Positions 1-16,867 of a stretch of 16,867 nt of DNA are shown here, piece by piece; the stretch's first letter is position 1; each line of letters begins with the position of its first letter. Origin of the DNA: Jimgerdemannia flammicorona (Eukaryota > Mucoromycota > Endogonomycetes > Endogonales > Endogonaceae); the NCBI GenBank assembly GCA_003990745.1, contig RBNI01003012.1, positions 1 to 16,867 on the forward strand, in the 5' to 3' direction. The notes under the pieces are model-generated. The model searched no databases. It was given only the letters and a program-made list of their open reading frames with translations, and was not told where the DNA came from. Position numbers and translations under genes: made by a program.

Positions 1-346
1 TTTTTTTTCTCCTACTACCTTGAAAATGATTCTCTGATCGGACTGTCCCTAAGTCCATTGTTGACCACATGAATATCGCTTTGTTCATCTATACATAGTA
101 TTGGCTATTATTTACCTCTGTTTTGTCCTTCGAAATGTATCATTTATCGCTGTTTTCTTGGAATGTTTTTTGTATTATTGTAATTCACCTCTGAATAGTG
201 ACATCAAAACAGTTGCCTAAGCATTGACTTTTGGTTAAGTTGGGCTGCGGCTCATTTCAAGAAATGTGTCAAAAGGCCGAACTGTAGTACAGAACGGAAG
301 CCTTTCTGATACCGCAGCAACCGCAGGTTCCTGTAAATAAATCAGA

Positions 347-912
347 ATGCTCGGAAAACAGTAAGTACACCGCGCACAACATTTCCATTTATGTGGCCAA
401 GTCTTTTTTTTTTTTTTTTAATATATACATATAATTGCGCATACAAATTGACATCCACTATTGCGAGCACCACAATTCTTTCTCACCATTCGAACCAGAA
501 ATCATATCAACCATCAACGTGACATCCCATCACTCTCTCACGCCTGCCCAACTTTCGCAGATCGCGATCCTGCTGCAATACGTCACTACGCTTGCGTGGC
601 ATCAAGTGGGATGCCGCTCGGACGAGATACGAGCCGGCTGAGTACAAGAACGGCTTCTTGGCGCATCGCGTTTCCGAAGAGTCCGGGGAAGCCACACTGA
701 TCGGATACATCGGCCTGTACTGTTTCGATGGTGCGGAGCTGGAGATCGGCCTCCTGGTCGCGTCGCAGGCGGACGAGTTGGCCTACATTGAGATCGTGGG
801 GATGCCGATGGATGCGGCGGCACACGAGTACAGACGGCGCAAGACGGATCCCGGTGTCATGAACCCGCCCCAGAAGATGATCTTCATCCATCGCACCGGG
901 TTCGAGGTGTAG
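347..912 (+). CDS. Possible small two-exon protein, function unknown
   Basis: Proposed exons are 347-360 (ATG then four codons, phase 2) and 561-912, joined by an intron with a perfect GTAAGT donor at 361 and a TTTCGCAG acceptor at 553-560. The spliced frame is 366 nt, encoding 121 aa and a TAG stop. I chose this model because the strongly coding-looking frame in 592-912 has no ATG in front of it, while this splice joins it to an ATG. The body contains TLIGYIGLYCFDGAELEIGLL and later EIVGMPMDAAAHEYRRRK, then PQKMIFIHRTGFEV at the end. The GYIGL...ELEIGLL stretch faintly recalls the central strands of GNAT acetyltransferases, but the protein is too short and lacks a recognisable acetyl-CoA loop, so I do not assign a function. 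A 16-nt T run (404-419) lies in the intron. The start exon is the weakest part of the model. Confidence 0.4.
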
Positions 913-1151
913 TGGCGCGCGGTCAGGTGTGGTCCGTGCGGAGGGGGTGCGAGCTTCGGTCAGATCACGACGAGGTGGAGATGGTCCTGAACGCGAGCAG
1001 GTTCTGGGAGCGGTAGTATCATGAAGTTCTGGGATGGTGAATTTAGTCGGTTGTTTTGTTGCTTCGCTCCACTCCCAATGAAAGCATTGTTAAATATAGG
1101 AATTAGGAATTTCCCGCCATTCGGTGGCTTGGCGATTCAGATGATCGGATG

Positions 1152-1176
1152 TGACGTCACCAGCCGGTATATTAAA
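1152..1176 (+). promoter_or_regulatory. CRE palindrome plus TATA-like box upstream of the transporter
   Basis: TGACGTCA, the perfect 8-bp CRE palindrome bound by bZIP factors of the ATF/CREB type, is at 1152-1159. TATATTAAA follows at 1168-1176, about 34 bp before the ATG at 1210. This implies a very short 5' leader and argues against starting the protein at the in-frame ATG at 1021. Function is inferred from motif and spacing only. Confidence 0.5.
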
Positions 1177-1209
1177 CCCGTGGCTTGGAATATTCGGACT
1201 CGAAAGAAC

Positions 1210-4082
1210 ATGGCAGCCCATTCATCTTCAAACGGCTACCAGCCCGTCTCGCGCACATCTTTCACAAACGACTCCGTAGACAACCTACCCGAGATCCGCA
1301 ATCCCTCTACCTCCCCATCACCCACTTCGGTGTCGGCGCTCCCGTCACCAAAGAGATCCCACTCTTTCACCCTCGACCGCAGCAATGAAGTAGAGACAAG
1401 GAACGGCAAGCGGAACGACTACGACGGCTATGGTGGTTCGTATGAGGAGACGATGCCGCTGCACTTGCTGTCGCAGGAGGACGATGAGGATGAGGACGGC
1501 GACGAGGCGGCAAGAGACGTGACAATGCGGGATGACGACCCCATCAAGACACCCATGGATGGCGGGACAATTTTGGAAAGCTTTGTGAGTTTCCAGACAA
1601 GAGCATGACAGTCTAGTTGGGATATGCATTGAAATTGAGGGAAGGCGTGAGAGGAGTGCTTGAGACGGGGTGGAGAGGTGCTGGGAGAGAAGCGCTTGTA
1701 TTTTTGAAAGCGGATCGGAGCGCAGATGTGCCGCCTTTCTACTGGCATATTCGGACCTCGAAATTGAATGGAACTGCTTTGAGGCACATCTTCTAATTTC
1801 TATATCCCCTCTCTATCCATTATATCAACCTATAGCTGAACATGGCAAACAGTATCATAGGCGCTGGTAAGAAACGATTTCTAATCTTTAGCGATATGGT
1901 GGGATGCACGTATTTGATTTGCCAGTTTCAGGCGCTGCGTTTGGTGAGGTTAGTTAATTTGTTCCTCCATCTATCGATCATTGCCAAAAAAAATAAAAAA
2001 TAAAAAATAGGTATCATTGGGCTGCCATATTCATTCCGAGAAGCGGTTCGTACTAGTTTTGTTGATAAACTGGTTCTAGGCGAATTCAGAGTATGAGAGT
2101 AAGAATCTGAAGCAGAAGGGAGGAGGGGGGTATAGAGTGATGCGCTGGACTTCTATTTCAGATGGCGTATACAATTCCGCACCCTTATCAATATTCTCTT
2201 CATGTTGTAAATGATCATGATAATTACTGATGACTATTGTCTTCTTTACCATATCAAACAGGGGTTTTGGATGGGCCTGCTCCTCCTTGTCGGCCTGACG
2301 TGGACTGTTGGTACGTATTATTATTTCTCTCAGTCCTGTTTGCTTGGTCGTATCATCACATTGACACCACTCACTTTCTTGGACCACCTGAAACAGACTG
2401 GACGGTGCGGCTCTTGATGCACAACGGCAAACTAGCCGGGCGCAACACCTACCAGGACCTTATGTACTTCTGCTTCGGGCACGCTGGGCTGATCGCCATC
2501 TCCATGTTCCAGTTTGTGTTCGCGTTTGGGGGTGCGTAGATGAGTCAGATTTATCAAAGTTTGGTGGAAATGCCACGCGTCATCCGTTGGTAGGATATAG
2601 TACAATTTGGGCTGGTTTGCGTTGACATATTCCAAAAACCTTGCCTCGCGACTCTTTACAGCCATGTGCGCTTACTCTGTCATTCTTGGTACGCATTCCC
2701 CCATGTTCTTACTTGACGCGCACGCCCTGATTCCATGCACCCGACTTCTGAGACCCGATGTTTTCACCTCCCGCTCCCACTACGCAGGCGACACAATCCC
2801 CCACGTGGTCCTTTCCCTTTTCCCACGCATTACGTCCGTCCCAATCCTCTACCTTTTCACCAATCGCCGCTTCGTCATTGCCTTCTTCACCTGTTCTGTC
2901 TCCTACCCGCTTAGTCTCTATCGCGACATGACCAAACTCGCAAAAACCTCTGCTCTCGCCCTTGTTGCTATAGTCATCATTATCGCTTCGGTCATCATCG
3001 AGGGGCCTCGTATGCCACCGGAGCTCAGAGGGTCCCGCGTTGGCGCGTTCGATTTTGTACACGCGGAAGTATTTCAGGCCATTGGCGTTATTAGCTTTGG
3101 TGAGTGAAGGGTGATGTGGAGCTTGTGGATAAAACTCCACTCTTTGTGGGGTTTCGTTGTGATTTTCCTTTATAAGTGAAGCCATCTCTATTAATTAATG
3201 CTCTTATATACTTTCGGTTGCTGCGCCCGTCTCGCAGCCTTTGTCTGTCATCACAACAGCTTCCTCATCTTTGGTTCCTTGAAGCAGCCATCACTGAATC
3301 GGTTCGCCCTTGTCACACATTTGAGCATGTTTATCTCGCTTCTCGCGTGCCTAATGTTGGCGTTGGGTGGATATGCTGTGTTCACAGACCGGACAACAGG
3401 CAAGCTAAGGCTATCGGGATGGTTTGGTGTTTGCGTGAATTGAATTTCGGTGGATATAGCATTGGCTAGCTTCTGGTTGCTTTACGTCGGATCTGGAAAG
3501 TGACAAACTTAATACGGTACACAGGCAATATTCTCAACAACTTTCCGCAAAATGATTTCATCATCAATATTGCTCGTTTTTGCTTCGGCCTCAACATGTT
3601 CACGACCCTACCGCTTGAGACTTTTGTGTGTCGCGAGGTGAGCTTTGTTGTTCTTTGTGTCGAATCATTACACGTATCTTTACTTTGAAGCGATTCTAAC
3701 CCATTTCAATATCCCACACCAACCTTAATCTCAACCCACATAGGTGATTGAGCACTACTTCTACCACAACCGCACCTTCTCCCTCACCCGGCATGTGATC
3801 CTGACGACTCTGCTGGTTCTAGTGTCGATGCTCATCGCCCTCGTCACCTGCAACCTCGGCTTCGTCCTCGAGCTCACTGGTGGCTTCTCCGCCACCGCCC
3901 TGGCCTTCATCCTGCCGCCCATGTGTTATCTGCGCCTGGCCTCGGGACCCGTATTGACCCTCAAAAAGTTGCCCCACCTGGTATGCATAGCCTTCGGCGC
4001 CGTCGTCATGGTTCTCAGTACGTTCTTTAGCTTACAGAAGGCCTTGACGCCGGGGGGAGAGGAGGGCGGGTGTGATGCATAA
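1210..4082 (+). CDS. AVT2: Vacuolar amino-acid transporter, Avt2/SLC38-like (AAAP family)
   Basis: Predicted exons: 1210-1584, 1836-1866, 2011-2045, 2262-2310, 2397-2531, 2662-2688, 2788-3099, 3238-3399, 3525-3637, 3744-4082. They sum to 1578 nt, giving 525 aa and TAA. Residues 1-120 are a polar, Ser/Pro-rich N-terminal tail with an acidic patch near residues 89-99. The transporter core opens with GTILESF then LNMANSIIGAGIIGLPYSF, the TM1 signature of the amino acid/auxin permease family. VDWTVRL, FAFGAMCAYSVILGDTIPHV and TDRTTGNILNNFP follow, all typical of Avt2-type proteins. About ten to eleven hydrophobic segments are visible. The family moves neutral amino acids across vacuolar or endosomal membranes; the substrate here is unknown. 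The protein is somewhat longer than yeast Avt2 because of the N-terminal tail. All introns are GT-AG except the eighth, which appears to be GC-AG. The start at 1210 fits the TATA box 34 bp upstream. Confidence 0.9.
3400..3524 (+). other. Probable GC-AG intron in the Avt2-like gene
   Basis: The family alignment expects TDRTTG followed directly by NILNNFP. That junction requires a donor at 3400 reading GCAAGC after exonic CAG, with the acceptor ACACAG ending at 3524. GCAAG is the usual form of the minor GC donor. Using a GT donor further downstream would insert extra residues into a conserved loop. Confidence 0.65.
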
Positions 4083-4431
4083 GGTAGGGCGAGGGGCTAT
4101 TTATTGTCGATGAACCAGATACGATTATATTGTATGTATAGAGGCGTTTTGGAGGGATGGGAGTTCCAGTCTATACAGTACTGGATCTGTATTCGGTGGC
4201 TGGTTCGTCAAAAAAAAAAAACAAAAAACAAAAAACAATATATATAGAATCACCAACAAATTGTATAAATTTTAATTTTAAACGCCATTGTCGTTGCCCA
4301 ATGTTGAAGACTGGCAACTCTTAATCGGCAGCGACTCAAATAGACGTTCTGCAAGATTGGGCTCTGAGTCAGGCTAGCAGTTTCTAGACCAATAGGCGTG
4401 ACATAGAACAACAGCTAGAGATGTTGCCGTG
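4083..4431. other. Intergenic 3' flank of the transporter gene
   Basis: No coding signal is visible here. The stretch holds the 3' end of the transporter transcript, with AT-rich TATATTGTATGTATA at about 4126-4140, and an A-rich tract with C interruptions at about 4210-4238. No clear AATAAA lies close to the stop. Confidence 0.5.
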
Positions 4432-4560
4432 TTAGAGTGCTCTGATCCCAAAGAACGCCAGCGCCTGTTCGTACAACGGCTCCGCCTTGTCGTACTTGCC
4501 CTGGTTGGAGTAGAGTCCAGCCAAACAATGGTCTCTAAGCGCAACACCTTCACGGACTAC
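4432..4560 (-). pseudogene. Orphan TPR-motif relic (kinesin-light-chain-type TPR)
   Basis: Read on the minus strand, this stretch encodes one clear tetratricopeptide repeat, LAGLYSNQGKYDKAEPLYEQ followed by ALAFFGIRAL and a TAA stop (4432-4434). The GKYDKAEPLYEQAL core is the hallmark of the TPR_10/TPR_12 type found in kinesin light chains and in fungal NB-ARC-TPR proteins. Upstream residues VVREGVALRDHC no longer look like a TPR, and a CAAGC microsatellite interrupts the sequence at 4584. No ATG or neighbouring repeats are visible, so it is best read as a decayed fragment. It could alternatively be a last exon of a gene whose other exons I cannot recognise. It lies on the same strand as, and downstream of, the kinase-LRR gene. 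Confidence 0.6.
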
Positions 4561-4583
4561 GAGTGCAATAACAATAATAATAC

Positions 4584-4613
4584 AAGCCAAGCCAAGCCAA
4601 GCCAAGCCAAGCC
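4584..4613. repeat. Microsatellite (AAGCC)6
   Basis: Six perfect copies of the 5-bp unit AAGCC are followed immediately by an A-rich run (4614-4640). It sits next to the TPR relic. Confidence 0.95.
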
Positions 4614-5233
4614 AAAAAAAAATAAAATAAAATAAAAAAAACTTGCAAATAAATATAATTACTATGGAGATTGAACCTATCTTATTATACCACTTGTATG
4701 GTATTGATCAATCTATTTAAAAATCTATGTTGAGACTATACTGGATTACATATTTCAGTTTGGTCTTAAACTATAGAGCTATATTATTTAAATAATAAAG
4801 TGTTTTTAAAATTAGCTTTATATGTTATTAGAGTATTGGTTCAGATGTTGATTCCAAGTTGATTAAATAAATACTACTCATGTTCTAATAATTGTAATAA
4901 ATTTGAAATACTATTAATTTAAGTTAACTAGATTAATTCAGAGCACCAATTAAGCTTTATATATATACTATTTCAACAAACATATGCTAGCATTTAAACT
5001 AATGAGAACAGTTAAAGTTCACAATTTTTCATATTACATATTTGCAACTCATTCACTAGATTGTATGGGACATTCTAATATCTGCTATGGTCTGATCCAT
5101 TCCAGAGACCCAGTTATGGTACTGATCACATCGTCATATGCTGCTATCAAAGGATCAGGGAGAGAACACACTGAAATCGTGAGCTTGATTCCATTACGAC
5201 GCTGCACAACACTTTCACACAGTTTTCACATAC
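4614..5233. other. AT-rich intergenic region, no gene seen
   Basis: About 600 bp of strongly AT-rich sequence without recognisable coding potential, repeats or RNA genes. It is the 3' flank of the minus-strand kinase-LRR gene. The base composition changes abruptly to the more balanced composition of the LRR array near 5150. Confidence 0.6.
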
Positions 5234-5241
5234 TTCGAGAT

Positions 5242-8200
5242 TCAGATCAGAGACCCAGCTAGGGCGCGTGCCCCCTCGTGGCTGATGCCGGTTGCTGAAT
5301 ATGAACCGGGTATAAGCGAGCACGCACAAAACATGAGCATCATTCCATCGTGCAGCTGCACATAATGCTACACACAGTTCAGACATACAGAAGATATGCA
5401 GCTTGGTCAAGGTCGTATTCTGCTTCAGAGACTCGGCTAGGGCGCGTACCCCCTCGTCGCCAATGAAGTTGTCTGAACATGAACAATGGAAGAGCAAACG
5501 CACGGATCATGAACTTGATTCCATTATGCTGCTGCACACAATTTATCATACAGTTCCGACATACTGTTGAGATTCAGCGCGGTCAACGTCCAGTTCTGCT
5601 TCAGAGATCCGGCTAGGGCACGTGCACCCTCGTGGTCAATCCTGTTGACTGAACATGGGCGAACACGCACAGATCGTGAGTTTACTTCCTTCGCACCACC
5701 GTACACAATGCTTCATATAGTTCTGACATACTCTCGAGATTCAGCTTGATCAAGGTCGTGTTCTGCTTTAGAGATTCAGCTAGGGCGCGTGCATCCTCCT
5801 GGCCAATGCTGTTGTCTGAATATGAACAGGAGATGAGCGAACACGCATAAATCCCTCCATTACTCAGCTACGCACAATGCTTCACACAATTCAGACATAC
5901 CTTGGAGATTCAGCTCGGTCAAGGTCGTGTTCTGCTTCAGAGACTCGGCTAGGGCGCGTACACCCTCCTGGCCAATCTTATTTTCTTAAAACGAGTTAAC
6001 GCACACAGGCATGTGAGCTTCATTCCATCACGCAGCTGCACACAATGCTTCACACGGTCCAGACATACCTTGGAGATTCAGCTCGGTCAAGGTCGTGTTC
6101 CGCTTCAAAGACTCGGCTAGGGCGCATGCACCCTCGTGGCCAATGTCATTCTCTTCAAACGAACAGGGGATGAGCGAATACGCACAGATTGCGAGCTTTA
6201 TTCCATTACGCAGCTGCGCGCAATGCTTTACACAGTTCAGACATACCGCAGAGATTAAGCTCGGTCAAGGTCGTGTTCTGCTTCAGAGACTCAGCTAGGG
6301 CGCGTGCTCCTTCGTGGCCAATGCTGTTGTCTGAACATGGACAGGGAATAAGCAAACACGCACAGTCATGAGTTTAACTTCATCACGCAGCTGCACATAA
6401 TGCTACACAAAGTTCTGACATACTGGAGAGATTCAGCTTGGTCAAGGTCGTGTTCTACTTCAAAGATTCGGCTAGGGCGCATGCTCCCTGGTGGTCAATG
6501 GCGTTGTCTGAACATGAATAGAATGAGCGAACTCGTGCAGTCGTGAGTTTAATTTCACCATGCAGCTGCATATAATGCTACACAGAGTTCTGACATACAG
6601 GAGAGATTCAGCTCGGTTAAGGTTGTGTTGTGATTCAAAGATTCGGCTATGGCACATAACCCATGGTGATTGATGGTGTTGTCTGATATGAACGAATATG
6701 CACAGATTGTGAGCAAGATATCATTACGCTGCTGCACACCATGTCCCATACAGCTCTGACATACTTTCGAAATTCAGCTTGGTCAATGTTGTGTTCTGCT
6801 TCAGAGCCTCAGCTAGGGCGATTGCCCCTTTGTTGCCGATGCTATTGTCTGAACATAAACAGGGAATGATCGAACACGCACAGATCGTGAGCTTAATTCC
6901 ATCACGCAGCTCCACACAGTACTTCACACAGATCTGGCATACAGGAAAGATTCAGTTGGACTAAAGTCGTGTCCTTCAGAGACTCGGCTAGGGCGCTTGC
7001 TCCTTCGTGGCCAATGTCATTCCCTTAAAACGAATATGAGTTGGGTGAATACGCACAAATCGTGAGCTTGATTCCATTAAGCTGCACACAACGCTTCACA
7101 GAAATCTGCCTCACCTTCGAGATACAGCGCGGTCAAGGTCGTATTCTTTTTCAGAGACTCGGCTAGGGCGCGTGTCCCCTCATGGCCAATGTGATTCCCT
7201 TAAAATGAACAAGGGATGAGCGAACATGGACGGATCTTATGCTTGATTACATCAAGCAGATGCACATAAACGGTTCCGAGGTACCTTCAAGATACAAATC
7301 GGTTAAGGTCGTGTTCTGCTTCAGAGACTCGGCTAGGGCGCATGCCCCCTCGTTGCCGATGCTGTTAGCTGTACATGAAGGGAATAAGCATAGATCGTGA
7401 GCTTGATCCCGTCACACAGCCATACACAATATTTCATACAGTTTGACATACAGGAGAGGTTCAACTCGGTCAAGGTCGTGTTCAACTTTACAGACTCGGC
7501 TAGGGTACGTGCGCCCTCGTTAGAAATGCTGTTGCCTGAACGTCAACAAGGGATGAGCGAACACGCACAGGCGCGAGCTTAATTTCTTTACGCAGATGCA
7601 CCCAATGCTTCACGAAATTCGGACATACAGCTGAAATCCAGCCCGATCAAGGTCGTGTTCTGCTTCATTGACTCGGTTAGGGCACGTACCACTTCGTGGT
7701 CGATGTTATTGGCTGAACATGAGCGAACACAGACAGATCGTGAGCTTGATAACATTACGCAGCTGCACACAATGCTACACACAGTTCCGACCTACAGCAG
7801 AGATTCAGCTTGGTAAAAGTCGTGTTCTGTTTCAGAGACTCAACTATAGCGTGTGCACCTTCGTGGCCAATGTTGTTGTCTGAACGTGAACAGGGGATGA
7901 GCGAACATACACAGATCGTGAGCTTCATTCCATCACGCAGCTACACACAATGCTTCACATAGTTCAGACATACCGAAGAGATTCAGCTCGGTTAAGGTCG
8001 TGTTCTGCTTCAGAGACTCGGCTAGGGCGCATGCACCCTCGTGGTCAATGACATTCCCTTTAAATGAACCAGGAATGAGCAAATTGCGAGCTTCATTCCA
8101 TTACGCAGCTACGCGCAATACTTTACACAGTTCAGACATACCGCAGAGATTAAGCTTGGTCAAGGTCGTGTTCTGCTTCAGAGACTCAGCTAGAGCACGT

Positions 8201-11200
8201 GCACCCTCACCGTCACTGCTGTTGTCTAAACATGAACAGGGGATGAGCGAACACGCACAGATCGTGAGATTTCTTTCATCACGCGGCCGTACACCATGCT
8301 TCACACAATTCTGACATACTATCGAGATTCAGCTTCATCAAGGTCGTGCTCCGCTTCAGAGACTCGGCTAGGGCTCATGCACCCTCGTCGCCAATGTTGT
8401 TATCTGAGCATGGAAAGGGGATGAGGGAACACACAGATTGTGAGATTCAGTTCATAACGCAGCTGCACACAATGCTTCACACGGTCCAGACATACCTTGG
8501 AGATTCAGCTCGGTCAAGGTCGTGTTCCGCTTCAAAGACTCGGCTAGGGCGCATGCACCCTCGTGGCCAATGTCATTCTCTTCAAACGAACAGGGGATGA
8601 GCGAATACGCACAGATTGCGAGCTTTATTCCATTACGCAGCTGCGCGCAATGCTTTACACAGTTCAGACATACCGCAGAGATTAAGCTCGGTCAAGGTCG
8701 TGTTCTGCTTCAGAAACTCAGATAGGGCGCGTACACCCTCGCCACCAATGTCATTCCCTTAAAAATAAACCAGGGAATGAGCGGACACGCACAGATGGTG
8801 AGATTACTTCCATCTCGCAGCCGTACACAATGCTTCACATAGTTCCGACATACGTTTGAGGTTCAGTTTGGTCAAGGTCGTGCTCTGCTTCAGAGACTCG
8901 GCTAGGGCGCGTGCATCCTCGTGGCCAATGTCATTCCCTTAAATGAACAGGGGATGAGCAAAAACACAAACGCAGCTGCGCGCAATGCTTCACACAGTTC
9001 AGACATACCGCAGATATTAAGCTCGGTCAAGGTCGTGTTCTGCTTCAGAGACTCGGCTAGGGCGCATGCACCTTTGTGGTCAATGCTGTTGTCTGAACAT
9101 GAACTGGGGTTGAGCGAATACGCACAGATCGTGAATTCAATTCCATCACGCAGCTGTACACAATGCTTCACACAGTTCTAGCATACCGGAGAGATTCAGC
9201 TTTGTCAAGGTCGTGTTCTGCTTCAGAGACTCGGCTATGGCGCGTGCACCTTCGTAGCCAATGCTGTTGACTGAACACGAACAGGAGATGAGCGAACACA
9301 CCGATAGTGAGCTTCATTCCATCACGCACCTGCGCACAATGCTTTACACAGGTCAGACATACATGAAATATTCAGTTTGGTCAAGGTCGTGTTCTGCTTC
9401 AGAGACTCGGCTAGGGCGCGTGCACCTTCGTAGCCAATGCTGTTGACTGAACACGAACAGGGGATGAGCGAACACACACCGATAGTGAGCTTCATTCCAT
9501 CACGCAGCTGCGCACAATGCTTCACACAATGCTTCACACAATGCTTCACACAATGCTTCACACAATGTTTCACACAATGCTTCACGCAATGCTTCACACA
9601 GTTCAGACATACAGTCGAGATTCAGCTCGGTCAAGGTCGTGTTCCGCTTCAGAGACTCTGCTATGGCACATATACCATCGTGGTCAATCTGGTTGCCTGA
9701 ATATAAGCAAACACGCAAAGATTGTGAGCTTCATTCCATCACACAGCTGCGCAAAATGCTTTACACATCTCAGCCATACATACAGGAGAGATCCATCTGG
9801 GCCAAGGTCCTGTTCTGCTTCAGAGACTCGGCTAGGGCGCGTGCCCCCTCGTGGCTAAAGTCATTCCCTTAAAATGAACATTGTATGAGCGAACACGCAC
9901 ATATTATGAGCTTCATTCCACGCAACTGCGCACAATGCTTCACACACAGTTCCGACATACTGTCGATATCCAGCTTGACCAAGGTCGTGTTCTGCTTCAG
10001 AGACTCGGCTATGGCGCGTGCACCCTCACCGGTAATGCTGTTGGCTGAACATGAACAGGGGATGAGCGAATATGCACAGATTGTGAGTTCATAACGCAGC
10101 TGCGCACAATAATCAGCCATACAGGAGAGATTCAGTTCGATCAAGGACGTGTTCTGATTCAGAGACTCGGCTAGGGCGCGTGCACCCTCCTGGCCAATGC
10201 TGTTGTCTGAACATGAACAGGGGATGAGGGAACACACACGAATCGTGAGATTCAGTTCATAACGCAGCTGCGCACAATGCTTCACATAGTTCTGACATAC
10301 AGGAGAGATTCATCTCAGTCAAGGTCGTGTTCTGCTTCAGGGACTCGGCTAGGGCGCGTGCACCCTCGTGGTCAATACTGTTGACTAAACATGAACAGGG
10401 ACGTACAGATCGTGAGCTTCATTCTATCATGCAGCTACGCACAATGTATCACACAGTTAAGACATACATTTGAGATTCAGCTTGGTCAAGGTCATATTCT
10501 GCTTAAGAACTTCGGCTAGGGCGTGCGCCCCCTCGTGGCCGATGCTGTTGTCTGACATGAGGAAACATGTATATACAGATCGTGAGCTTTATTCCATCAC
10601 GCAGTTCGACACCATTAATCATACAGTTCTGACATACACATGAGATCCAGCACGGTCAAGGTCATGTTCAGCTCCAGAAACTCGGCAAGAACTCCGGCCT
10701 CCTTATCATCGATGTCGTTACCTGGAAGAGTCGATAAGAAACATACGCACATGCTGAGCTGGATTCCATCACGGAACTGCAAACAAGTTCTTACATACGT
10801 TGGAGATTCAATTCCGTCAAGGTAGTGTTCTGCTTCAGAAACTCTGTTAATGCGCGGGCGAACAGAATCCCAATGCTGTTACCTGAACATGAACAAAAAA
10901 TGTGAGCATACCCAGATCATAAGCTTGCTCCAACCACACAAAACAACAATTTACATAATTTCGACGCACAGCTGAGATCCAGCTTGGTTATATTTGTGTT
11001 CTGCTTTAGAAAATGGACGAGAACGCTCACTATTCTGATGTCAACGCCCTTTCCTGAACAAGATGGTCGATTAGTAGATAGGCCTTAATTTTCTGCTGAC
11101 AATAGTTCACTTAGTTCTGGCATACCGGACAGATTCAACTCATGCGAGGCTATATTCTGATTCAGAAGCTCTGCTAGCATGCCGGCCCCTCCGTCGCCGG

Positions 11201-12995
11201 TCCTACTTGCTGAAGATAAATTAAAGAATTAGCGAATTCAAACAGACCATGAGCTCGATTAGATGACAGCTATAAACCAATGGTTCGTATAGGTCTAACG
11301 TACGAGTGGTGTCCTGAGGCTCGGCGAGAGCGTCGGGCTCTTCGAGGCGGTCGGTTTTCTCTAAATATAGACGAATGTTTAATAAGCATAAAGTAGCAGT
11401 TAGCTATAAGTAATTGCGGTATGCAAACCCCCTCCAGTTGTCCGTTATCATCTAGTCACCGCCGTCCCTCATCCGCCAACATTACCTTCGATATTACCAT
11501 TTCCTGAACGATGCAACATGAAACAACACAAATGCCCGTCGGTTGGAAATGTGGATATTTTAAACTGTGTGAACGATGTGCAGTGTCGTTATATACATAC
11601 CTAGACTTGGCTGACGACTGAGATTTTCAAGTGCCGCTCGCGAGTGATGTTCTGTGATTTTCTGGAGCTGTTGGCTCGTGTAAAATTTACTTCCGGCATA
11701 GTGCACGCTCGCTCCATCCACGAATTCGAAAAGATCGGCGGCGGTGTTCGATTCCAGCTCACGCTGATGGAACGCCCGTCGTTTAACGATGAACGATTGC
11801 ATCTCGGGCGAAAACGAAACCGTCGCGATTGCAAGTGCTCGCAAAACTTTATCTTCCATATTTGGTGGTAAGACAGGCGGAATCTCAGCTAAACCAGCTG
11901 CACATTCGATCAACTGATTGTAGACTTCACGAGCGCTAGATCGCCGGTTGGGGTCGAGGTGCCAGCAGTTCCGAATGATATCGTTGAATGCTGTTGGCGC
12001 ACCAGGAATCAGCTCCTCGCGAAGGCCATCTGGTTTGCTGGCAGCAGCTGCCGATGCGTTGCCATGGGGTGGGACCCCGACAATCAGCTGCCACAACAAG
12101 GTTCCCAAGCAGTATACGTCCGATTTTTGTGTATAATGCTTTCCCTCAAAGATCTCAGGAGGAAAGTATGTCATCCGACCATAAACTCCATCCTCAACAT
12201 TTGCATTATCTACAGATCGACTGAGTCCAACATCAATCAAGAGCGCTGTGTAAGATTTATGGAATACTACGTTGCCCGCGTGAAGATCTTCATGGCAGAA
12301 TCCCATATCGTGGAGACTGACCAAGCGACTGGTAAGTTTTATGGCATATGTCAATGCGGTGTACCATTCACCATCTTGTTCGCACGGCTTCTTCTCGAGA
12401 GTGCCCATATCAGCAAATCGCATAATCATCAGATACTCTCCAGTAATAGGGTATTGTGACAAAGCAACAATATCCAATGTGGGGGCAGGAATGGTTTCAC
12501 TTCTGCAGTGACTCAAAAGAACATTGAGCACTAACTGTGTTGGTGAGGTAAAGACATAGTAAGGTTACTGATAATAAAAGTTGTCTGAAAAAATATATAT
12601 TAACCCAACCGAAACTCACCTCTTCGACCATTGACAATTTCAATTCTTTGGCGGCCACATCGCACTTTGCGTTATTCATATCAACTGTTGCACGATAAAC
12701 TTTGGCAAATCCGCCTTCGGCAAAGGGCTTAAATTCGTTGAGTTCCTGGGGCGGAATCCAGGCAAGGTATGGCTCCAGCTGCGGCACGCCCAAGGTATCG
12801 AGGCAGGCACGGAGTTGTTGGTCGTTACGGAGTTGGTGGTCATTACGGAATTTGTCAATATCGCGTTGTCGCCGACTACGGGGTCGACCAAGCACTTTTT
12901 GTTCATAACGGCGATTCTTCCACTTCAAGATTTCTGCTTGGTGGGCTCTGTCCAGGCGGTCCCAGGACTAGCAGATCGTTCAGGCGGGCGGACAT
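5242..12995 (-). CDS. Kinase-LRR protein with one exon per leucine-rich repeat
   Basis: The 5' end has a kinase domain in exons 12995-12620 and 12534-11601. It is followed by 36 LRR exons, R1 (11304-11360) to R36 (5234-5294), the latter carrying the terminal TGA at 5242-5244. Each typical exon is 84 nt, starts with two bases of a split codon and encodes one 28-residue ribonuclease-inhibitor-type LRR of the form NSIGHEGARALAESLKQNTT plus LTELNLx. All introns after the kinase are phase 1. Without skipping, the frame would give roughly 1,400 residues. Three defects complicate this. The best start ATG (12995) is one base out of frame with the kinase frame. R18 has an in-frame TGA (8375-8377). R29 has an in-frame TAG (6455-6457). 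Either of these exons can be skipped with the frame kept. The layout suggests an intracellular recognition kinase, by analogy with RI-type LRR sensors; that role is inference. It may also be a pseudogene. Confidence 0.75.
6030..6287 (-). repeat. Perfect 258-bp duplication, copy A
   Basis: By direct comparison this is identical base for base to 8457-8714, a displacement of 2427 bp or 14 modules. It covers all of exon R31, the next intron upstream and about half of exon R30. Beyond both ends the copies diverge at once to ordinary inter-module similarity. Confidence 0.9.
8457..8714 (-). repeat. Perfect 258-bp duplication, copy B
   Basis: Partner of 6030-6287. It covers exon R17, the adjoining intron and about half of exon R16. 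The first mismatch on the right is at 8715 (A against G). Confidence 0.9.
9241..9511 (-). repeat. Recent tandem module duplication (R12/R13)
   Basis: The 3' exon part plus intron beginning at 9241 and the equivalent beginning at 9418 share unusual variants, including CTTCGTAGCC, GTTGACTGAACACGAAC and CCGATAGTGAGC. They differ only by an A/G change, a 2-bp AC insertion and a few substitutions over about 100 bp. This looks like a one-module tandem duplication, younger than most of the array. Confidence 0.75.
9514..9597 (-). repeat. 12-bp minisatellite, 7 copies, inside an LRR-array intron
   Basis: Seven copies of ACAATGCTTCAC run from 9514 to 9597, with single-base variants in copies 5 and 7. 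They lie in the intron between exons R11 and R12 (9447-9612, 166 nt). Removing six copies (72 nt) restores the usual 94-nt intron length, so the expansion arose from one pre-existing intron motif. Confidence 0.95.
11486..11503 (-). other. Possible 18-nt microexon between kinase and LRR array
   Basis: The gap between the kinase exon and R1 (11361-11600, 240 nt) is over twice the usual intron length. On the minus strand an acceptor GTTCAG, then 18 nt encoding roughly GNGNIE, then a GTAATG donor would split it into introns of 97 and 125 nt and keep phase 1 at both ends. The NxNI start resembles the beginning of an LRR module, so it may be a vestigial repeat. Retaining or skipping it keeps the frame. 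Confidence 0.25.
11601..12967 (-). other. TKL-like protein kinase domain (two exons)
   Basis: Exon 12967-12620 (start of the open kinase frame) and exon 12534-11601 are joined by an 85-nt intron, with donor GTGAGT at 12619-12614 and acceptor CACAG next to 12534. Motifs in order: glycine loop FAEGGFAKVYRA, lysine in VAAKELKL, a helix-C segment with VEE, hinge region IMRFADMGTL, catalytic loop HEDLHAGNVVF, activation start DVG (usual DFG), PPE in place of APE, DVYCLGTLLWQLIVGVPP, and a final arginine in NRRSSAREV. All residues needed for ATP binding and phosphotransfer seem present, so an active Ser/Thr or dual-specificity kinase is likely. The N-terminal lead ends in LAWIPPQELNEF, a type of lead-in seen in expanded kinase families of mycorrhizal and related fungi. 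Confidence 0.88.
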
Positions 12996-13159
12996 GTTTC
13001 GGTAGTGTGTTTGCGATTTCTATGGCTGTCAAAACAGAGATAGACGAGCAGTTTACGAAGTCTATCTCGCGACTTGGCGACGTTTGTGTAATAACGGAGG
13101 CTTAGTCTCAGCCTCTCAGCCTCTCGACACCATCCTGATGAGGATTATGAGCCGCACGG

Positions 13160-13172
13160 TGTCCGTCGGACA
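13160..13172. promoter_or_regulatory. TGTCCG-T-CGGACA inverted repeat, possible zinc-cluster site
   Basis: A perfect 6-bp inverted repeat around one base, containing CCG-N-CGG. Fungal Zn2Cys6 regulators bind CCG/CGG half-sites in this kind of arrangement. It lies about 165 bp upstream of the kinase-LRR start codon. Only motif and position support the call. Confidence 0.3.
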
Positions 13173-13238
13173 ACCTTAACAGTAAGATGTGAGATCAATA
13201 TGTACATGAATATTGTTGTTACTGGTGTTGTTTTATTT

Positions 13239-13256
13239 TAATAATAATAATAATAA
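13239..13256. repeat. Microsatellite (TAA)6
   Basis: Six TAA units followed by AA, in AT-rich intergenic DNA. Confidence 0.9.
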
Positions 13257-13364
13257 AATCATTGAATATGCTTTCATCATCAGCAATAAATTCAATACTT
13301 GCAAAATAGAGTCCATATATATATATACATAATTGCTAAATATAGAAATATATATATGGGTAGG

Positions 13365-13397
<33 letters not shown>

Positions 13398-13403
13398 AGA
13401 AAG

Positions 13404-13431
<28 letters not shown>
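13365..13431. repeat. Two long poly-A tracts (31 and 28 nt)
   Basis: An uninterrupted A31 run (13365-13395) and an A28 run (13404-13431) are separated by TAAGAAAG. It may be simple-sequence expansion or the tail of an old retroposed insert; no target-site duplication is recognised. Homopolymer lengths may also be inexact in the assembly. Confidence 0.9.
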
Positions 13432-13434
<3 letters not shown>

Positions 13435-13996
13435 ATAATGAGTGGTTTATTGTTATGTATTGTGCGCTGCCCACTAGGGGTAGTCAGGAAATTTATCTTC
13501 TCTCTAAATGTCGGTCTTGGCGGCTCTTAGGCAACCGACAGCAAGGACGAGATTAGTTGCACGAGATAAAAGAAGGCCGTGAAAAGGCGGTGGCCGAGCG
13601 GGTGGTTGAACATTCCACCAGATATCGTCTCACTTCCCTACCCCTAGCGCCTTCCCTCTCTCTATTATCTGCTATTCCTCACAAAATGCCCGAGGCTCCG
13701 CTATGATGTACATACTGGTGGCATCACGATTCTTTGGCGATATGTTTGTGGCGCGATTAAGCGCCAGGGTGTTACGATGAAGGGGAGGCTTTTTCTTATG
13801 ATGATCCTATGGTTGTTGAAGGGTATTGCGAATTGCAGGGATGGGAGATTGTATCAAGAAGCTACGATACACACAATTGTGTTTGCATAGACTCGCTTCC
13901 ATTGCAATCGAGTTGCTTGCTCTCATTGTTACAAGCAATCCACAATCCACCACTCAATCACTTATCTCACAACGTCCCGTTGTAATTTTCCCCGCT

Positions 13997-14374
13997 TTAT
14001 TCCTCGTCCTCCTCTTCCGAATCCGTCCTCCTCTTCCGAATCCGTCCGTTGTCTTGTTGATATATCCTGGAACGTGAATAGTGCCAAGTGAGTAGCACGA
14101 CGTGATTGGCCGCTATCGTGATGGCCGCTATTTATGCATTTATAATTAGGTCCACTGGGCGTTGCGGGTCCCTCGTTATCACAGTATGAGAACCTGTGGT
14201 ATCGATTGCCTTGCCCTCCATCCGTTCCGGTTGCTGTACTCACATTTCGAACCCGAGTGTAAGGTCAATGAGCATAATTAGGCCGGTCACCACGACCGCA
14301 CCGAGGAAGATTGGTTTTATGGCGCGGATGTATGACCTTTGAAGCGGGTTTGTTGGCTTGCGATAAGGTGGCAT
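13997..14374 (-). CDS. Small single-pass membrane protein, unknown function
   Basis: Exon 1 runs from the ATG at 14374 to 14244 (phase 2, donor GTGAGTAC). Exon 2 runs from 14066 (acceptor GTTCCAG) to the TAA at 13997-13999. Together they are 201 nt, encoding 66 aa. A basic N-terminus (MPPYRKPTNPLQRSYIRAIK) leads into one hydrophobic segment (PIFLGAVVVTGLIMLIDLTL), then a polar tail with IRKRR and an acidic end, TDSEEEDEE. The stop overlaps an AATAAA hexamer. The layout of a short positive leader plus one membrane span is common among small mitochondrial inner-membrane assembly factors, but I recognise no family. A competing acceptor at 14194-14196 gives a 50-nt intron and a longer frame ending at 13962; I prefer the first model because of its intron length and coherent tail. 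Confidence 0.55.
14007..14044 (-). repeat. 19-bp tandem duplication in the small membrane-protein gene
   Basis: Two perfect copies (14007-14025 and 14026-14044) of a 19-bp unit. Because 19 is not a multiple of three, the copies are read in different frames: the upstream copy gives the basic RIRKRR segment, the other the acidic TDSEEE segment. Confidence 0.9.
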
Positions 14375-15549
14375 TCTGAAAATCCAGAATTGATTTAATC
14401 ATCATGCGTGTTTGTGCGTTTGTGCATGCTATGTTTTATTATGCTTTTGCATGATCTTTCATAGTTCCTTTGCATCCCATCATCATCAATATGGTGGAAA
14501 TCAAGAGTGTCCCGCCTCATGAGCTATTTTGGGATATCGTGGCTGCGAGGTGTTTTGCCGGGTCGATACGGGACCTTTCGCGCCTTGGATCAGTCTCTTA
14601 TGACAAACATCAGCAAATCGTCATTTCCGAGAGCATGTGCAGCAAACTCTTGTACTCAAAGGCATTGACTGGTCACGTCACGGGATCCGGCTGCCTCGTC
14701 CTCCTCGTAGGAGAGGCGTCATGCTGATATGGGGGGTGGCAAATTTACGGCGGTGATCCAATCGTCTGGGATGAGATCAATGAGATGCCGGAATGGGATT
14801 TCTGTAGTTCCGTGATCAATATTTGGCTGTTTCACTGGGCAATTGACAATGCCAGGTTGTGGGGAAGGGAGGAGGTAAATGGTTCATCCATTCAATAAAC
14901 CGTTGTGTAAAGTGGGGATTTGGATACAAGGGCCAATTGAGGACAATGAAGCGGCCAGTGCGAGACATCACACATGACCAAGCATTTTAGGTATGGCGAC
15001 AAACGCCCAGCAAGAGATAGGATTTAACAAAGAGGACAATGGCTATACTCAACCGTTGTTCGGCATGTAAGCCAGTATGTGTATTATATATATGGGCAAA
15101 GGAGGCGGATCGGAGAGTTGCAATATAATTTGTATCTTCACATGGCTTTGCTCTGGCACGGGGGGGTGATCTTCTGTATGCAGCGGGGGGAAGGTGTAGA
15201 GAGATTGGATTGGTATTGTAAGAACGTGCAGAGCATGATATCATGGTGCGACTCTTGGGTGATGTTGGGCTTGGCCTTTTTGGACAAGCAGGCAAGAGAC
15301 CTCGGCCAATCATTCGCAGTAAATTTCGGGAGTGATCTGATGAGAAAAAAAGAAAACACTGGATTGTGAGTGGCCCTTGTAATTACGATCTCTCTTTCCC
15401 TGCTTTGCCTTTTGTCGTCTCTTTGCCCTATCGACTCGTATGAAGTAGTGTTGCTGCCCTTTTGCTGACTTTCTTTTTTGGACGCGCACCTATTCCATCT
15501 ATCCACAACTACACCCCCCCCCCCCCCCAAAAAAAAAAAAAGAAAAATC
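14375..15549. other. Divergent intergenic region between the small gene and FZO1
   Basis: About 1.17 kb containing the upstream regions of both divergent genes. An open frame from ATG 14491 to TGA 14727 (plus strand, 78 codons) has no family resemblance and no supporting signals, so I do not call it a gene. Nothing else recognisable was found. Confidence 0.5.
15514..15541 (+). repeat. C15-A13 homopolymer pair just before the FZO1 start
   Basis: Fifteen C (15514-15528) are followed directly by thirteen A (15529-15541), ending eight bases before the ATG at 15550. It probably lies in the 5' leader or core promoter. Exact lengths may vary between individuals or be sequencing-sensitive. Confidence 0.9.
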
Positions 15550-16746
15550 ATGTCCGCGCAATACTTCGCTGGCGGTGGATCCGCAGGCTCGTCCTTTGTA
15601 AACAGCCAAAACACCCGCCGCCGCTTCTCGCTGCCTTCTGACGAACCCCCAAGGAACCCCACCATGGCCAACTTCCCAAAACCCTCGGAGAGCACCCCCT
15701 GGTCGTGTCCCGCCCCCTCCGTTCCCGCCATCATTACGAATGCCCGGCCCGTCTCTGTCAATCCCTCCACGCCGAGGCTGACCACCGTGCAGGAGAATCA
15801 AATCTTCGCCGACAAGAGCAATCGTCTGCTCAACATTATTAAGGGGACCAACGGCATCCTCAACGAGCTGCGCGAGACAAACAAGAACCGCTTCCTCGTC
15901 TCCTACCCTGTCATCGACTCTCTTAACAAACTCTCCCGATCCCAATCATTCGCCCAGAAACCCGATGACGCCGCCTCCTCTTCCCAACGCGTTATCGACG
16001 CCGTCCCACGCGACTACCTCCGCCGCAGCAACTCCCTGTCCCTCCCCCCCTCCCTCAAAGACAATGCCCAGGTCGATCCATTGACTCACCGCCTTCTGAC
16101 CCCAGAGACCGCCCAAGCATTCAATCACCAGCTCAATGTTCTCAAGCTTGACCTGAAGGTTGGCAACCTCTCGACGGACGTTGCTTCGCTCGAGAAGGAG
16201 TCGATCGCGACTCTCCTGGACGATCGCCTAGCGCAGAGCATCAAGCACCTGGACAACCTGCACTCGCGCGTGGCCGACAAATCCTCCAAGGTTCTCGTCA
16301 CGGGCGACCTCAATGCCGGCAAGTCTACCTTCGTTAACGCCCTGCTTCGCCGCGACCTCATGCCCACCGACCAGCAGCCGTGCACCACCCTCTTCTGTGA
16401 GGTCCTTGACGCTACTGAGAACGACGGCGTCCAGGAGGTTCATGCCGTGCCCGATCCCGCTGCCTACGTTCGCACAGACGAATCCACCTACGACAAGGTC
16501 GACCTCCGTCACCTATACAAGTACGTCACCGACGGAAACGAGCAGTACGCCATTCTCAAGATCTACACCGCCGATAAGAGGTCCACACAGGAGAGTCTAC
16601 TGCATAATGGCGTCGTCGATATCGCAGTGATTGATTCTCCCGGATTGAATCGCGATTCGCTCAAGACTACCGCACTTTTCGCGAGGCAGGAGGAAATTGA
16701 TGTCGTTGTGTTTGTGGTGAGCGCTGAGAATCATTTTACCCTTTCG
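15550..16746 (+). CDS. FZO1: Mitofusin Fzo1, N-terminal part (GTPase of mitochondrial outer-membrane fusion)
   Basis: The first 399 residues form one exon ending at a GTGAGT donor at 16747; the rest lies beyond the window. Fzo1 is a dynamin-family GTPase anchored in the mitochondrial outer membrane that drives fusion. A Ser/Pro-rich N-terminal region with ETNKNRFLVSYPVIDSL is followed by a helical segment (about residues 195-245) and the GTPase domain. The P-loop is GDLNAGKST (residues 252-260), switch I has QPCTT (residues about 276-280), and the G3 motif is DSPGL (362-366). The sequence breaks off after VVFVVSAENHFTLS, where family members continue with the G4 region. The Met at 15550 is preferred; upstream in-frame codons are read through the homopolymer tract and lack an ATG. 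Identification is firm, although the C-terminal half with the membrane anchor cannot be seen. Confidence 0.95.
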
Positions 16747-16867
16747 GTGAGTCACAACAACATTTACTATTATTTCTACTATTGTTATTACTGCTGATAC
16801 TAAATAAATGCATTGATTTGTTTACGAACGGAGAATTGTGAATGATGAATTACGACACTAAAAAAAA

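Follow-up and report, generated by a model that had tools for sequence, protein, structure and literature searches.

The early-diverging fungus Jimgerdemannia flammicorona probably possesses a large family of intracellular kinase and NB-ARC proteins, which carry a solenoid of ribonuclease inhibitor (RI)-type leucine-rich repeats (LRRs) encoded by one exon per repeat and bind partners through its variable concave face. One member lies on the minus strand of contig RBNI01003012.1 (assembly GCA_003990745.1), analysed over a stretch of 16,867 nucleotides (positions 1 to 16,867, hereafter the window). What is new is the one-LRR-per-exon cassette, shared in a fungus between kinase and NB-ARC modules.

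The exon array of the window gene

On the minus strand, 34 LRR exons preceded by AG and followed by GT span positions 11209 to 5389. The plan of one LRR per exon, with 84-nt frame-neutral exons in series, is followed by 33 of the 34; the remaining exon (7023-6943) measures 81 nt, and all units have phase-1 borders at both ends. A 57-nt first module (11360-11304) and a truncated last unit, which starts at 5294 and reaches its stop codon at 5244-5242, bring the total to 36. The initial annotation had described 36 phase-1 LRR exons of 84 nt in a single gene. The array, the phase and the total stand, with only 33 exons of the full 84 nt alongside the 81-nt exon, the short first module and the truncated last one; "a single gene" is too narrow, since the same genome holds a large family of such genes.

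Exon halves were scored separately, so that exon length was not assumed, with matrices trained on the same window units. The 34 five-prime halves scored 9.8 to 83 bits and 33 of 34 three-prime halves 26 to 67 bits, the truncated last unit failing; the same half-exon scan of the opposite strand gave a top score of -12.6. Introns of the array are mostly 71-96 nt long, and one of 166 nt holds a 12-bp minisatellite. Once spliced, the repeats match the RI-type pattern (28 residues, LxxLxLxxN and then a helix) as well as the structures of ribonuclease inhibitor, NLRP and similar proteins, and a 307-residue part reaches 209.7 bits with Pfam LRR_6 (cut-off 23.4). The features of the gene are as follows.

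12620-12967, minus strand: exon with the N-terminal region, the kinase glycine loop and the VAAK lysine, an open frame not shared by the ATG at 12995
11601-12534, minus strand: kinase exon ending in phase 1 (PK_Tyr_Ser-Thr 81.9 bits, HEDLHAGN, DVGLS)
11486-11503, minus strand: candidate 18-nt phase-1 micro-exon (GNGNIE) in the gap between kinase and array
11304-11360, minus strand: module U0, a truncated LRR of 57 nt, phase 1-1, GTACGT donor
10799-11209, minus strand: head units U1-U3 (11209-11126, 11053-10970, 10882-10799), recognisable by position in paralogs
5389-10721, minus strand: inner units U4-U34, 31 LRR exons (30 of 84 nt, U25 of 81 nt)
8320-8403, minus strand: U17, exon with an in-frame TGA
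6424-6507, minus strand: U28, exon with an in-frame TAG
5242-5294, minus strand: U35, terminal truncated unit, whose TGA ends the gene
6030-6287: 258-bp block of about 1.4 units, beginning within an intron and ending within an exon, identical to 8457-8714
8457-8714: second copy of the 258-bp block, at a distance of 14 units
9513-9600: 12-bp minisatellite of 7.3 copies, enlarging one intron to 166 nt

A gene family with three architectures

We searched the whole assembly that contains the window (134.8 Mb, 7,754 contigs). When 150 of 244 candidates were scored, kinase matches were found on at least 28 contigs, the window's included, with an E-value of 1.2e-50 or better and 58-100% identity. The exon array directly follows the kinase in all 15 kinase loci examined (the window and 14 paralogs), which constitute architecture I. 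The micro-exon candidate was seen in 8 of these loci, the window included. The top U0 candidates measured 33, 57, 60, 63 or 84 nt in 13 of the 15 loci; none was found in the other two (L022, L023), and the U0 of L017 has lost its GT donor. The HxD and DxG motifs are present in the kinases of all 15 loci, and VAAK was found by regular expression in 14, L019 reading MAAKEM at that position.

In architecture II the order is reversed, the array preceding the kinase, as in C850 (27 units including the last cap unit) and C4509 (23 units); judged by coordinates alone, six further contigs are candidates for this order. In architecture III, NB-ARC, Sel1 and ankyrin repeats share an open frame of 714-780 codons, which ends in half an LRR and leads through a GTATGT donor into an array of 29 units in C2430, 16 in C3740 and 5 in C977, where the array reaches the contig end. 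The NB-ARC domain lies upstream of the LRR array on the same strand and exceeds the Pfam cut-off of 23.5 bits in C2430 (37.3) and C3740 (42), the top-scoring stretch covering the P-loop part only; in C977 it was aligned over positions 2-247 of 248. The stretches C4210 and C228 end at a contig edge.

A kinase takes the place of the nucleotide-binding (NB) domain in the window gene, which is thus not itself a NOD-like receptor (NLR). Nor was the single transmembrane helix between LRR and kinase that marks LRR receptor kinases found. The usual hydropathy threshold for such a helix is 1.6. In the window gene model, 19-residue mean hydropathy revealed no transmembrane stretch, the C-terminal kinase exon peaking at 1.09 and the LRRs at 1.25; the value for the N-terminal exon (1.02) was taken from paralog L010 only. 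A stretch of 1.98 occurs in C850, in a frame piece read as intron.

The exon plan is uniform across the family. In 23 arrays, the window's included, 348 of 355 pooled exons are 84 nt long, and the other seven (three of 81 nt and one each of 90, 78, 72 and 51 nt) are also multiples of 3. These 355 were kept from 372 candidates. Among the 17 dropped, 16 lacked a scored donor: these were U0 modules, terminal or cap units, ends of stretches, the broken unit of C1811 and a single false hit. The other had no AG and was not 84 nt long. The rule retained four 84-nt units lacking AG and is thereby biased toward 84; when both AG and GT were demanded, 340 of 347 exons measured 84 nt. The earlier statement that the exons are phase-symmetric and frame-neutral is supported, all measured lengths being multiples of 3 in phase 1. 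By comparison, the introns of the 23 arrays (gaps below 140 nt, nine longer gaps being excluded) ranged from 64 to 137 nt and took 46 distinct values.

Genome-wide, 423 matches to a strict exon-end pattern were counted, against none for the reversed control. Given that 77 of 306 known units match the pattern, this suggests, as a rough estimate, about 1,700 LRR units in the genome.

Several loci resembling these genes were set apart. C6241 combines NB-ARC with LRR-like units in broken frames and was not counted in architecture III. A second partner domain sought downstream in C138 proved to be a kinase-like fragment only. The intronless LRR giants of C1490, C2995, C5367 and C4667, considered as ancestors or retrocopies of the arrays, have an 84-nt step and a low exon-model score, and were assigned to another family. 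Their frames in C1490, C2995 and C5367 (L026, L030, L034 and L036) are 858-2403 residues long, carry a different 28-residue LRR and could be bacterial or ancient. In C1811 (L044), one array has the common LRR subtype interspersed with a second subtype (KGASALVEALKINTSLQ). Upstream of the NB-ARC frame, L054 (47-523) and L058 (1602-2072) contain related frames of 157-159 residues, for which no Pfam match was found in the C2430/C977/C3740 group; they may represent the N-terminal domain of the NB-ARC-LRR genes. In C3740, the NB-ARC/ankyrin/LRR gene is immediately preceded by a further frame (L058, 3-1538) with CHAT and NB-ARC domains, and the region is possibly a cluster of STAND genes.

Evidence that the predicted splice sites are used comes from contig C4481 (L025, reverse complement 1192-2542), in which 13 units are joined at exact 84-nt steps and the introns are absent. 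After the 13 units come the last unit and the 3' end of an array gene, which share 84% identity with their counterparts in C1944, and then A18. The copy is truncated at its 5' end, inside a unit, and is flanked by a 15-bp repeat with 13 of 15 positions matching. This imperfect target-site duplication was equalled in 3 of 5000 shuffles. These marks identify the sequence as a processed retrocopy of an array gene, and it follows that one family member has been transcribed and polyadenylated, and its introns removed at the predicted sites. Read in this way from genomic DNA, the use of the sites in mRNA applies to a relative rather than to the window gene itself. The copy has decayed, as a stop codon ends 2 of its 13 units. 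LINE-like retroposition is, or was, active in this genome. C1811 has also lost one intron, precisely between the predicted sites, which fused an exon pair.

Variation, turnover and competing explanations

To describe variation along the repeat, position classes were fixed from the LRR motif and not from the data. In ten arrays of 15 or more units, the ratio of nonsynonymous to synonymous differences (pN/pS), computed over repeats that are not independent and involving no formal selection test, was lowest at core positions (0.23), intermediate in the loop and helix (0.62) and highest in the exposed beta-strand (1.18). Codon 27 reached 1.31 (bootstrap 1.11-1.61). The codon split by the splice junction, codon 28, had the highest pN, 0.621 as against 0.609 at codon 27, with 20 different residues seen there (3.65 bits). 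The splice junction therefore sits at an exposed residue, whose identity depends on which exons are joined.

The arrays also differ in the number and content of their units between paralogs. The 42 head units, picked by protein motif, all had their nearest DNA relative in another gene, and in 93% this relative was another head unit. In 6 of 8 arrays, by contrast, inner units had their nearest relative in their own gene more often than under any of 200 shuffles. In the window, the 258-bp block is identical 14 units apart, compared with a background exon identity of 0.72, which points to a recent exchange or conversion within the array; intron identity between window units is about as high as exon identity. 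This pattern fits a model in which the head units stay fixed while unequal exchange and conversion reshape the inner array. Units with aberrant splice dinucleotides may be lost without a frameshift. The initial annotation had proposed that frame-neutral modules let the array change at the DNA or RNA level; it is the DNA level that the paralog differences, the own-gene neighbours and the duplicated block bear out. The diversity-generating role that it also suggested gains support to the same extent, from this DNA-level change and from the variable exposed beta-strand positions.

In the mechanism that we favour, exons would be spliced exactly at the predicted sites, as the retrocopy demonstrates for the family. 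Because each exon is frame-neutral, units would be exchangeable without breaking the protein, and recombination could add, remove, convert or disable them while the protein stays intact. The exon border falls in the beta-strand, which makes the split codon itself an exposed residue. The concave beta-sheet face varies on a conserved scaffold, as the position classes display, and would bind partners, most likely non-self or variable ligands; binding may in turn control the attached kinase or NB-ARC switch. A bolder version, which we put forward only tentatively, holds that kinases, with the array on either side, and NB-ARC modules draw on a common pool of roughly 1,700 interchangeable LRR exon cassettes, and that DNA recombination, possibly with RNA skipping, remakes a non-self surface, the junction being placed so that exon choice alters an exposed residue. 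Such a system might be a fungal counterpart of LRR immune receptors.

Several observations weigh against the partner-binding family as we read it. Two window exons contain in-frame stops (acceptors 8403 and 6507; 32 of 34 exons are open), and the ATG at 12995 does not share the frame of the window kinase, all 14 paralogs being open from an in-frame Met. A nonconsensus splice dinucleotide is present in 8 of the 355 kept exons (four lack AG and four lack GT, the latter including one exact intron loss), and C1811 carries its broken unit. The bootstrap exceeds 1 at codon 27 only, the intervals of codons 2, 23, 25 and 28 including 1, and the dependence among repeats noted above limits what the pN/pS values can say about selection. 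Inner units of C4477 and C4509 showed no own-gene excess over shuffles. Furthermore, C453 and C3504, tried as parents of the retrocopy, have closer 3' ends (90% and 89%) and no unit-by-unit match; with no parent matched, the inference about isoforms from C4481 was dropped.

The two nonsense exons and the misplaced ATG could mean that the window gene is a plain pseudogene and its array a decaying tandem repeat. For this copy we incline somewhat towards that view, but the pN/pS of the window array (0.49) is comparable to that of five other, open arrays (0.34-0.53), and nearly all its exons remain open. In the pooled set only two exons bear stops, both from the window, and the paralog arrays are open in the kept exons. 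The pseudogene reading would thus hold at most for the window copy, and as a recent event. This copy has probably been disabled recently, unless the two stop exons are skipped and another start is used, and the window gene is a poor specimen of its family.

A rather unlikely alternative, although the strongest at the level of the family, is that these proteins are scaffolds for ordinary conserved partners, in which repeat number drifts and exposed sites are unconstrained, the regularity being a by-product of tandem duplication of exon-intron units. Exon and intron do duplicate together, as their similar identities indicate, and pN/pS near 1 at exposed sites is also expected from relaxed constraint. 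On the other hand, codon 27 lies above 1, and the estimated family size together with the use of the repeats with NB-ARC modules resembles receptor families.

It is less probable still that diversity arises within an individual, exon skipping or somatic exchange producing many isoforms per array. The phase-1 lengths in multiples of 3 would permit this, damaged units lie within otherwise open arrays, and human NLRs of the same design skip LRR exons, according to Hoss et al. (2019, PMC6642158). Nevertheless, the sole processed copy found keeps 13 units unbroken, and its unmatched parent makes skipping impossible to judge from it. An assembly artefact, with collapsed or chimeric repeats including the 258-bp duplicate, is very improbable: the assembly is fragmented and the region is repetitive, yet separate contigs give the same exon plan with different sequences. 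An artefact could nonetheless have altered the copy number of a single array, or the 258-bp block.

Known systems and neighbouring features

A close parallel to these exon arrays is found in vertebrates. Most human NOD and NLRC genes devote one exon to each 28-residue LRR and place the exon border within the beta-strand, and such exons are skipped in NLRP3 (Hoss et al. 2019, PMC6642158). The fungal genes share with these vertebrate NLRs the RI-type LRR, the 28 residues per frame-neutral exon and the beta-strand border, as well as, in the C2430/C977/C3740 group, an NB module. They differ in that the window gene has a kinase and the third group an NB-ARC rather than a NACHT domain, and in that arrays of 20-38 units occur here in a fungal gene family. 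The shared exon plan is likely a convergence.

Regarding fungal NLRs, Dyrka et al. (2014, PMC4986451) state that "no LRR motifs were found", Uehling et al. (2017, PMC5658179) and Wojciechowski et al. (2022, PMC9815663) likewise describe them as lacking LRRs, and a 2023 review (PMC10197012) refers to "predominantly other repeats". A 2025 paper on Sordariales (PMC12258605), whose set includes eight Mucoromycota, lists LRRs among accepted NLR repeats. Fungal NLR/STAND proteins with WD40, TPR or ankyrin repeats (PMC4986451) resemble the present genes in their similar internal repeats, concerted evolution and variable exposed sites, and in the combination of NB-ARC with ankyrin seen in the third group; unlike them, the genes described here have LRRs after the ankyrin repeats, each LRR forming an exon.

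As for kinases, fungi were described as being without LRR receptor kinases, and nine LRR-plus-kinase genes, all intronless, were reported in 49 fungal genomes (Soanes and Talbot 2010, PMC2939053). Both these nine genes and the LRR receptor kinases of plants and oomycetes combine LRR and kinase in one protein. The window gene departs from them by its kinase-first order, RI-type repeats, many introns and the lack of a detected transmembrane stretch.

Among sequence matches, the top protein match to the spliced repeats was CAOG_03008 of Capsaspora owczarzaki (LRR_6 and kinase, 49% identity), which belongs to a holozoan and not to a fungus, and has the LRR before the kinase. An LRR match nearly as close (54%) was a MYND-LRR protein of J. 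flammicorona (P0160), and the nearest named kinase matches (40%) were J. flammicorona kinases (P0013, P0017). Unlike the window gene, these three proteins have a kinase or LRRs, not both. In lamprey variable lymphocyte receptors, diversity on the concave LRR face arises from modular LRR segments by somatic assembly. The array differences observed here, by contrast, lie between paralogs of one genome.

Our literature search, which left most subscription journals and preprints outside its scope, found no report of one-LRR-per-exon arrays in fungi. Many fungal kinase-LRR and NB-ARC-LRR genes made from one cassette would change the picture of fungi as lacking both, and the cassette would represent an apparently independent arrival at the exon plan of vertebrate NLRs. 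It also makes it testable whether one-repeat-per-exon LRR arrays persist because recognition modules can then be skipped and recombined.

The array gene has several neighbours in the window. Downstream of the array, a short TPR-like fragment on the minus strand (4436-4560, YSNQGKYDKAEPLYEQALAFFG) is either a relic or a separate exon, and a multi-exon amino-acid transporter gene (Aa_trans) occupies 1200-4080 on the plus strand. An A-rich run of 67 bp with 90% matches lies at 13365-13431. Finally, the first exon of a mitofusin/Fzo1 gene (Dynamin_N) is located at 15550-16746 on the plus strand; its top named matches in Mucoromycota come from Choanephora, Rhizopus and Lunasporangiospora (52-54%), and its top match overall reaches 71%.

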